Assembly (NCBI GenBank): GCA_025935755.1
Contig: JAICUQ010000003.1
Location: 1 to 64,000, forward strand
Length of the DNA: 64,000 bases
Source of the DNA: Chthoniobacterales bacterium
Lineage (GTDB): Bacteria; Verrucomicrobiota; Verrucomicrobiia; Chthoniobacterales; UBA10450
Direction of reading: 5' to 3'
Position numbers and translations under genes: made by a program. Below are positions 55,627 through 60,324 of the stretch, in pieces. Each line of letters starts with the position of its first letter. Position 1 is the stretch's first letter. The notes under the pieces were generated by a model. That model made no database searches. It was not told the DNA's origin and worked only from the letters and a program-made list of their open reading frames with translations.

Positions 55627-56745
55627 CTATTTGCGGCGCGGTCCGATTTTTATTTCCGTTTGTGCGCTCACCTTCTTCAAGCCCGCGATAAGCTCCGCAA
55701 CTTGTTTCTCCAGTTGCTCGACTTTGCGATGTTCTTTCAGAAATTCGTTAAGCAACATGGCGTTTACTTGATCGTAGCGGACGCTGTACGGCTTTCCTTC
55801 TTTGTCGCGCACAATCAGGTCAGGATTCACCTTTTCCACCTCCTCGGCGATCAAGCCCAGTTGCTGAATGCCTGTCGAATCGATCTCCTTGTTATAGCGG
55901 AAGGTAACCGGTGTAAGTGCAAAGAGCGCCTCGCTCGCCTCGCCCATGGGTTTGATTTGGTTTTTGTAGCGGGCCGAGGAAGTCATCGTTCCGAGTCTTC
56001 CGTCTGAATTGACGAAGACTCCAACACCACTGGCAGAAGTCGAGCCGAATATATTTCCGATATAGCAGCTGTCGTCCACGTTTGCACCGGACACGCCCGC
56101 GCCGATGCAGATAACGTTACTGGCCGTGGTGACATTTCCGCCTGCTCCGGCGCCCAAGGCGGTGTTGTCATTGCCAGTGCTGTCGCGGAGCGCGGTAAAA
56201 CCGTTGGCCGTGTTGCGGCTGCCGGTGGTGCTTTCGAGCGCTGCAGCGCCAGTAGCAGTGTTGGCTTCGCCGTCGGTCTGGCTTGCGAGCGCGCTTTCAC
56301 CAATGGCCGTGCTCCCCCCGCGTCCGGTTTGGCTTGCGAGCGCTTGATAACCGACAGCGGTGCTGCCCCCGCCGAAGGTGTTGCTGGAGAGCGCGCCAAC
56401 ACCTACGGCTGTGTTGGTAGGCCCCGTGGTGTTGAGCAAAAGCGCGGCAGCGCCGACGGCCGTATTGGAATCCCCCTTGTTGAGAAGCAACGCTACCGCG
56501 CCGAGAGCGGTGTTGAAGCTGCCACTGGTATTGAAAAAGAGAGAGCGCCAACCGACGCCCGTGTTTCCAGCACCGGTGGTGAGGGAATTGAGCGCACCGC
56601 ATCCTTCCGCCGTCGTAAACCCGGGATAGCATCCGTCCGGCGCGGGAACAACTGCGAGTGCTGCGGGCGAAAGCCCAAAGTACGCAAACAGAAGAGCGGC
56701 GAGCAATACTGGAGTTGCTTTTTGGATCTGAATGAATGGATTCAT
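55627..56745 (-). CDS. Secreted YadA-head-like protein with S74 chaperone domain, second copy
   Basis: The 372-aa product, started at 56745 for its signal peptide (MNPFIQIQKATPVLLAALLF), has head-like repeats (about 50-225: NTALGAVALLLN, NTAVGAAAL, GGSTAIGESALASQT) and a C-terminal S74 domain from about 255 (TSSARYKNQIKPMGEASEAL, LTPVTFRYNKEIDSTG, QLGLIAEEVEKVNPDL) with a coiled-coil tail. It is paralogous to 3452-4864 but has a different upstream leader (family 2). Confidence 0.88.
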   Translation of the reverse strand: MNPFIQIQKATPVLLAALLFAYFGLSPAALAVVPAPDGCYPGFTTAEGCGALNSLTTGAGNTGVGWRSLFFNTSGSFNTALGAVALLLNKGDSNTAVGAAALLLNTTGPTNTAVGVGALSSNTFGGGSTAVGYQALASQTGRGGSTAIGESALASQTDGEANTATGAAALESTTGSRNTANGFTALRDSTGNDNTALGAGAGGNVTTASNVICIGAGVSGANVDDSCYIGNIFGSTSASGVGVFVNSDGRLGTMTSSARYKNQIKPMGEASEALFALTPVTFRYNKEIDSTGIQQLGLIAEEVEKVNPDLIVRDKEGKPYSVRYDQVNAMLLNEFLKEHRKVEQLEKQVAELIAGLKKVSAQTEIKIGPRRK

Positions 56746-56890
56746 GTGCTTCCTTTCTTTCCCCGCCAACGTTGGTTCTGTTGGTCGCGGGTCCGGAGAG
56801 GCAAAGAACCTGGCGGGGAAAGGTCCTCCGCCCTGATTCAGATCCGCTTTAGCGACGCCGAGTTTGGAAAAATCTCGCCAACCGGTCAAC
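56746..56890 (-). promoter_or_regulatory. Shared leader, family 2, copy E
   Basis: On the minus strand: TTGACCGG, AAACTCGGCGTCGCTAAAG, GGAGGACCTTTCC, CCAGGTTCT and CCGGACCCGC before the start codon. The same blocks in the same order occur at 58641-58790 upstream of the NHL propeller gene. It resembles a structured UTR more than a simple promoter. Confidence 0.55.
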
Positions 56891-56972
56891 GCAAATCGGA
56901 GTTCGACCAGTGGAAGATCGTTGTCCCAATTTTTGTCGCGACGAACTAATCGGTGCTACGGTGAGCACACTT

Positions 56973-57575
56973 ATGGATCGCGTCATCAACATCTGGTCCG
57001 ACGTTATCTGACCGTTTTGTTATCTCGGCTCGGTCTGGGCCGAAGCGGCGGCGAAACAGCTCAAGGCTGGTCTGCGTTGGCTTCCATTTGAAATTCATCC
57101 TGAGACGCCGCCCGAAGGAGCACCGAAACCCTTTCCACCCGAGGAGTGGCGTAACGTTCGGGCGCGGCTTGAACGTCTGGCTGCTGAAGTGGAACTTCCG
57201 ATTGATCCACCGAAGCGTAACGTGAACTCGCGGCTCGCGCTCGAGACGGCCGAACTGGTGCGCGCGAAAAAGGGCGATCACGCAGCCGGCGTGTTTCATC
57301 ACGAGGTTTCGCGTGCTTTCTTCACCAGGCATGCGGACATCTCAAAAACCAAGATCATTATGCCGATCGCTCAAAGCTTCGGCATCGCAGCTCCCGAGGT
57401 AGAAGCCGCCTGGAACGAGCATCGCTTTTCTCCCGCCGTTGATATGTTTATGGAACAGGGCTACATGGCCGGCGTCACAGGCGTCCCGGCGATGGCGTGG
57501 CCGAATGCGCGCGCGATCATTGGGATGATGCCGGCAGCTGATCTCGTGCGTCTACTTCGAAGCGAGACACCCTGA
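56973..57575 (+). CDS. DsbA/FrnE-family oxidoreductase, candidate selenoprotein (in-frame TGA)
   Basis: The 200-aa product reads MDRVINIWSDVI-U-PFCYLGS, where U is a TGA at 57009-57011 (residue 13). In DsbA/FrnE proteins this position is the reactive Cys of a CPWC/CPFC motif. The frame then continues with LRWLPFEIHPETPPEG, helical DsbA insert and the cis-Pro GVTGVPAMAWP to a normal end. A SECIS-like hairpin starts 13 nt after the TGA. GGTGAG lies 7 bp before the ATG; an in-frame GTG is at 56961. Family members are thiol-disulfide oxidoreductases or isomerases, cytoplasmic here (no signal). The alternative is a nonsense-mutated gene. Confidence 0.8.
57025..57043 (+). promoter_or_regulatory. 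SECIS-like hairpin in the coding frame
   Basis: Seven base pairs (TCGGCTC with GGGCCGA, one U-G) close a GGUCU loop at 57032-57036. Twenty bases separate the TGA from the loop G; the E. coli fdhF SECIS has the same GGUCU loop about 18 bases after its UGA. The loop is the SelB contact in bacteria. Confidence 0.75.
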
Positions 57576-59413: not shown

Positions 59414-59878
59414 TCAGCGATCCAACAGCCGCGAATCAAACCGATATTCGAGCGGCTCGCTGATTTTGATTTTCCTGAAATCCGGATGTCTCGGATTCAA
59501 CAAAAAGTTCATCTCGCTCGTACTCAGCACGCTGGGAACTGCCAGAGCAACGGATTTTCCCATGTCCGCCCATTCGTCGCCGATTTGCATGGTCTGAATA
59601 CCCGGCGGTTCCGCGTTCCAATGCGGCGGCAGATTTTTGACCGACAGGCGACTGGTTAGTTTGTCCTCCCACTCCAGTCGAAATGACAGATATCGCGCGT
59701 CGGGAATTAACGGCGTTAGATGAACGAGCAACTCCAATGCGGCAAGCGATTCGTGTTCGCTCACATAAACGATTGCGGTGCCTCGCGAGTTCCAGCGGCC
59801 ACCGTAGATGCGAGCGCCCTCTCCGGTAAATGCACTTTTAGCGCGCGCCCCGCGAACAATTCGCCACGCAGACGGCAT
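59414..59878 (-). CDS. RES-domain toxin
   Basis: The 154-aa product has the RES signatures WRIVRGARAKSAFTGEGARI, YGGRWNSRGTAIVYVSEH and ALELLVHL. Known RES toxins degrade NAD+ through an ADP-ribosyltransferase-like fold. It overlaps the antitoxin stop by one base (ATGA), the usual order antitoxin then toxin. Confidence 0.92.
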   Translation of the reverse strand: MPSAWRIVRGARAKSAFTGEGARIYGGRWNSRGTAIVYVSEHESLAALELLVHLTPLIPDARYLSFRLEWEDKLTSRLSVKNLPPHWNAEPPGIQTMQIGDEWADMGKSVALAVPSVLSTSEMNFLLNPRHPDFRKIKISEPLEYRFDSRLLDR

Positions 59879-60324
59879 CAGGTATACACACTGTATTCGA
59901 TACGGCCTAACAAGTTCTCGACCTCGCGCGCGCCGGTCTCAGTGCTTGCGTAGTCGAGCGGGGTTGCGCCTCCGAGCCCCGCCTGGGGATGTTTCAGCCA
60001 GGCTCGTGCTTTGGCGGCATCGCCGAAAACCGCCGTCGCCTGTCTGAGTAATCGTGAAAAACGAACTACTTTGTCCGACTCATCCGGAGAGAGGCGTCCC
60101 GCAACTTTGCGCCGCTGCAGGGTGGATCGTGAAATACACAGTTTTGCCGCGAGCTTCTCAAAAGGCAGGTCAAGAGTGTCTTGCAAAGTCTTCAGCTCAG
60201 AAAAGCGGAGGCCTTTCTGAATTTTCTGGATCAGCTCGGTGGGATGGCTGGGTTTTCCGGCTGCCGAATGTTTATCGAGAGTTGCCGTTTTCACCGGTGG
60301 GTGCGGATGATTCACTTGACACAC
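59878..60324 (-). CDS. Xre/MbcA/ParS-family antitoxin
   Basis: The 148-aa product has an N-terminal helix-turn-helix region (FEKLAAKLCISRSTLQRRKV) and a C-terminal DUF2384 domain (AKARAWLKHPQAGLGGATPLDYASTETG) that blocks the RES active site. A GTG start at 60324 lies within the palindromic operator; a GTG a few codons downstream is an alternative. It neutralises the RES toxin and should repress its own promoter. Confidence 0.9.
   Translation of the reverse strand: MCQVNHPHPPVKTATLDKHSAAGKPSHPTELIQKIQKGLRFSELKTLQDTLDLPFEKLAAKLCISRSTLQRRKVAGRLSPDESDKVVRFSRLLRQATAVFGDAAKARAWLKHPQAGLGGATPLDYASTETGAREVENLLGRIEYSVYT

Follow-up and report, generated by a model that had tools for sequence, protein, structure and literature searches.

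Does a reading frame that is intact but for one in-frame TGA encode a selenoprotein, or is it the remnant of an ordinary gene? The question is raised by positions 56,973–57,575 (forward strand) of a 64,000-nucleotide stretch from the genome of a Chthoniobacterales bacterium, the whole of which we call the window. An earlier note, made from the letters alone, had read this locus as a DsbA/FrnE-like enzyme in which UGA is decoded as selenocysteine (Sec), giving a UPFC redox site. Judging from homologues, the hairpin downstream of the TGA and the selenium genes of the host, we consider it very probable (about 0.95) that the product of this gene is a DsbA/FrnE-family oxidoreductase with a thioredoxin fold, located in the cytoplasm and using Sec as the active-site nucleophile.

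Results

The frame runs for 200 codons, and its TGA at 57,009–57,011 is followed by no other in-frame stop until the terminal TGA at 57,573–57,575. The product of reading through it would be MDRVINIWSDVI-U-PFCYLGS..., 200 aa in length, so that a full-length DsbA/FrnE frame broken solely at residue 13, as had been claimed, is what the sequence contains. PF01323 matches residues 5–191 of the readthrough protein with 93 bits (cut-off 25.6), and no NCBIfam model matches it. The TGA stands where the CPxC active site has its first Cys. The TGT codon at 57,018–57,020 specifies the putative resolving residue Cys16, which is invariant among 32 aligned sequences and is the only Cys of the readthrough protein besides Sec13, and the codon at 57,486–57,488 specifies Pro172, within ‘GVP’, which is invariant in the aligned family (100% in the homologue comparison) and which we take to be the cis-Pro position of thioredoxin-fold oxidoreductases. 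On the 5' side, GGTGAG at 56,960–56,965, 7 nt ahead of the ATG, might serve as a weak ribosome-binding site; a simple scan for a sigma-70-like promoter of the gene found none. The gene stands singly, with functionally unrelated neighbours on the opposite strand. The minus strand of the window carries, at 55,627–56,889, a protein that is rich in repeats and ends in a Peptidase S74 chaperone domain, with numerous related copies across the genus, and, at 59,414–60,324, a RES-domain protein with an Xre/MbcA/ParS antitoxin, a typical toxin-antitoxin pair.

The candidate SECIS element at 57,025–57,043 also has the position and spacing attributed to it earlier. Its arms (57,025–57,031, tcggctc; 57,037–57,043, gggccga) form a 7-bp stem closing a GGTCT loop at 57,032–57,036, the spacer between the TGA and the loop is exactly 20 nt (57,012–57,031), and the stem-loop by itself has a folding energy of –10.4 kcal/mol. 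Published criteria for bacterial SECIS elements call for a loop of 3–9 nt with G in the first two loop positions, an upper stem of 4–16 bp, a location 16–37 nt after UGA and an energy of –7.5 kcal/mol or lower (PMC13188914); the 5-nt GGUCU loop, 7-bp stem, 20-nt distance and energy found here all lie within these ranges.

How often would such an element arise by chance? The two strands of the whole window hold 1910 TGA triplets. By a permissive definition, 21 of them precede a SECIS-like hairpin of 7 bp; just one, that at 57,009–57,011, precedes a 7-bp stem whose loop reads GGTCT and lies 17–23 nt on. When codons were redrawn synonymously from local usage with the protein held fixed, a 7-bp stem appeared in 7.4% of draws and a stem with the GGTCT loop in 0.9%. 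Local folding energy was not unusual compared to shuffles (z about –1 to –1.4), and because the single-sequence fold is unremarkable in this sense we do not rely on it as evidence. By itself, then, the hairpin is no more than moderately improbable, which makes it suggestive but not conclusive. What settles the question is the conservation of the hairpin in homologues together with the presence of sel genes in the host.

Homologues with UGA at the same codon are widespread. A degenerate pattern, which demanded TGA at the first active-site Cys and fixed part of the 5' arm of the hairpin (T and GG) and nothing in the 3' arm, gave at least 118 matching stretches in 85k species genomes. Among the matches listed, 80 loci were inspected, and 79 of them show TGA within a DsbA/FrnE active-site motif, two of the inspected loci (L024 and L025) having further stops shortly after the motif; the one without this motif (L084) is a chance match. 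SelA was searched for in 50 genomes of these listed loci: it was found in every one of the 49 true TGA-DsbA/FrnE genomes tested, with 313–540 bits, whereas the genome of the chance match gave a SelA-like match of just 44 bits. In a 301-genome sample of Chloroflexi, the phylum of another scan locus (L094), each of the 22 sequences that best match the window protein contains a single TGA and is otherwise free of stops. Throughout the aligned homologues the codon column holds U or C, that is, TGA or TGY.

The hairpin follows the TGA. Of 97 main-clade UGA forms, 68 form all seven stem pairs of the window element; of 46 Cys forms, none does. Over 54 thinned UGA rows, 94.2% of cells are paired compared to 79.1% in arm shuffles, which ignore the relatedness of the rows, and none of 500 shuffles reaches as high; both sides have changed at five stem pairs, in 48 cells. 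Two controls agree in direction with the shuffles, namely that sliding by one column destroys the pairing register in the UGA rows and that 32 Cys rows reach 51.3%, nothing above their shuffles. Close Cys relatives bearing the same loop, along with further disabling mutations in this strain, had been named as what would speak against the reading. The comparison does not refute it: within the clade the TGA forms keep the hairpin, and Cys forms lack it. Two Cys forms lie inside the UGA clade. One, L189, forms four of the seven pairs; the other, L197, still forms six of the seven of its former SECIS hairpin and is possibly a recent Sec-to-Cys reversion, so that loss of the hairpin after such reversion is partial in one case.

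A separate observation concerns UGA-FrnE genes of Betaproteobacteria and Bacillales (L030, L054, L067, L071, L076, L087, L089, L093, L099 and L047, L049–L051, L065, L081, L083, L090, L102), which sit inside an otherwise Cys-type clade and show no hairpin where one is usually found. Those of the Bacillales have one whose loop lies about 29 nt after UGA. The sequences suggest that Cys may have given way to Sec separately in these groups, with SECIS elements arising anew.

Is the host equipped to decode UGA in this way? Its genome is a fragmented draft of 3.67 Mb in 270 contigs, about 90% complete, in which selC, selD, selA and selB form one cluster on a single contig. All four genes whose absence would have counted against the earlier note are accordingly present: the tRNA-Sec scores 69 bits and has the anticodon TCA (UCA) by ARAGORN, SelA matches with 387 bits, and SelB carries its winged-helix domain. 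A second C-terminal fragment of SelB (L010, G000:C20:158-295), which lies on a separate contig and scores the same as the full copy, is either a duplicate or a strain variant. SelA was found in 31 of 35 genus genomes searched, which makes it a trait of the genus and not the mark of a stray or contaminating contig; the GC content is 0.553 for the sel contig, 0.550 for the window and about 0.55 for the contig with the formate dehydrogenase gene.

Two further host genes have UGA where Sec would be expected. SelD itself reads LSTCAG-U-ASKLS at its active-site Cys position (L001:230-1294), and the UGA codon is identical in all eight genus mates in which the region is visible (L145, L146, L148–L151, L153, L154). 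The formate dehydrogenase alpha chain (FdhA; L144:1120-1770), cut by the contig end at the edge of contig C103, reads NQARI-U-HSSTVPGLG, and its hairpin, GGTGCCC-GGTCT-GGGCACC, places the loop 18 nt after UGA. The GGTCT loop is common to this hairpin and the one in the window.

In the tree, the window protein falls within a clade of UGA forms only (16 rows including itself, support 89/83); its exact position is unsure because its branch is long (2.16). The residues invariant in the family, D10, U13, P14, C16, G19, P172 and G184, are all retained. An AlphaFold2 model built with 31 homologues has a pLDDT of 95.6 and places U13 immediately before a helix spanning residues 14–29, which in this predicted structure is the position that the residue has in thioredoxin-fold enzymes. 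The best PDB match of the model is Deinococcus radiodurans FrnE (TM 0.86), and SCO1869 is also among the best solved structures.

The distribution of the gene is sparse. Identity to other UGA forms is 24–36%, with none found above about 36%, and it is the sole UGA form among 213 genomes of its order. No copy was found in genus mates, where matches to the flanking genes lie on scattered contigs, none containing the gene. Searches with residues 14–200 found no close relatives among the genome contigs searched, viral contigs gave no close relatives of the protein, and plasmids gave no DNA similarity to the gene, with plasmid protein matches being distant (about 31% identity or less).

Discussion

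Such a distribution can be accounted for either by horizontal gain or by an old gene that survives here after loss elsewhere; both are possible. A bolder proposal is that the gene represents a separate, deeply diverged Sec-FrnE lineage, acquired by this one species from an unsampled donor, in which Sec serves a different substrate or stress role than in the known DsbA-like selenoproteins. We regard this as tentative, and somewhat unlikely.

Of the readings that deny Sec altogether, that of a decaying pseudogene, in which an ordinary Cys codon of a DsbA/FrnE gene has mutated to TGA, survives best, and it is very improbable. A long branch, the lack of an orthologue in the genus and an in-frame UGA are what a decaying gene might show; with the nearest homologue found at about 36% identity, recent decay is conceivable, and the protein departs from the family consensus at several places (L26A, G74E, A96V, G100K). 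Yet decay has left 200 codons free of a second stop or a frameshift, as the earlier note had observed, and every invariant residue in place. The stop would have had to fall exactly on the codon that is Sec in more than 100 homologues, in a gene that groups with the UGA forms and not with the Cys forms and that keeps the SECIS hairpin of the family intact in seven of seven pairs.

A base error, with TGC or TGT as the true codon, is conceivable in principle in a draft genome of this kind, but a random mistake would not put the gene among the UGA forms with their hairpin, and Sec-type UGAs are found also in the SelD and FdhA of the host; we give this reading next to no weight. Hardly any weight, too, belongs to translation from 57,189 only, with the upstream part untranslated: ordinary start and stop rules do yield a 128-aa frame there (GTG start, 57,189–57,575, forward strand), the first after the TGA and what standard annotation had been expected to call, but homology to the family covers the residues ahead of the TGA and those immediately following it, where the active site lies, and a fragment lacking them would be without any known function.

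If UGA is decoded as Sec, as we believe, the likely course of events can be sketched. SelA and SelD would produce Sec-tRNA-Sec from the selC product, and SelB would bind the GGUCU hairpin 20 nt downstream and deliver the charged tRNA to the UGA at codon 13, where Sec would be inserted. In the finished protein, Sec13 would act as the attacking nucleophile and Cys16 as the resolving thiol, the two perhaps joining in a selenenylsulfide while the enzyme exchanges disulfides with thiols of proteins or small molecules. Its most likely role, judged from FrnE and DsbA-like proteins, is that of a thiol-disulfide oxidoreductase. The enzyme would presumably work in the cytoplasm, as no signal peptide was seen by eye.

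These findings add a selenoprotein that ordinary annotation misses. They also indicate that the genus, which looks like one of soil Verrucomicrobiota, decodes Sec and that its complement of selenoproteins is small: SelD and FdhA, to which the DsbA-like protein is added in this species. For the SECIS element of the DsbA-like family, they provide strong evidence by covariation across many phyla.

How does the protein compare with known systems? Lists of selenoproteins include DsbA-like ones from 2006 at the latest, when there were four (PMC1794560); by 2016 the count stood at 45 proteins from 41 organisms (PMC5029168). A 2026 review names a DsbA-like ‘form 1, PF01323, UxxC’ (PMC13188914), and two DsbA-like selenoproteins have been reported from Asgard archaea. 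On selenoproteins of the host's group nothing was found in the literature searched, whose coverage was incomplete. Since DsbA-like UxxC proteins had already been published, the kind is known, and what is new is the member and its host; the selenoprotein reading of the earlier note stands on the frame, the hairpin, the sel genes and the UGA homologues, and its novelty has to be toned down. With DsbA-like form 1 the gene shares PF01323, a UxxC motif in which UGA replaces the first Cys codon, a downstream bacterial SECIS element and sel genes in the host, but the protein is very diverged, at 24–36% identity to other UGA forms.

The E. coli fdhF SECIS element has a GGUCU loop, as does the element of the window, which differs from it in its spacing of 20 nt and in an unrelated stem sequence. 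The closest solved relative, D. radiodurans FrnE (5cnw, 5cp1), resembles the window protein in sequence (8e-7), in predicted fold, at the TM score given above, and in the motif IWSDxxCPxCYxG. Its C-terminal extension bears a Cys of its own, and a C239S mutant structure is in the PDB. In contrast, the window protein stops after 200 residues and lacks this longer Cys-bearing C-terminus, and where the active site of FrnE has Cys, it would carry Sec at the first position.
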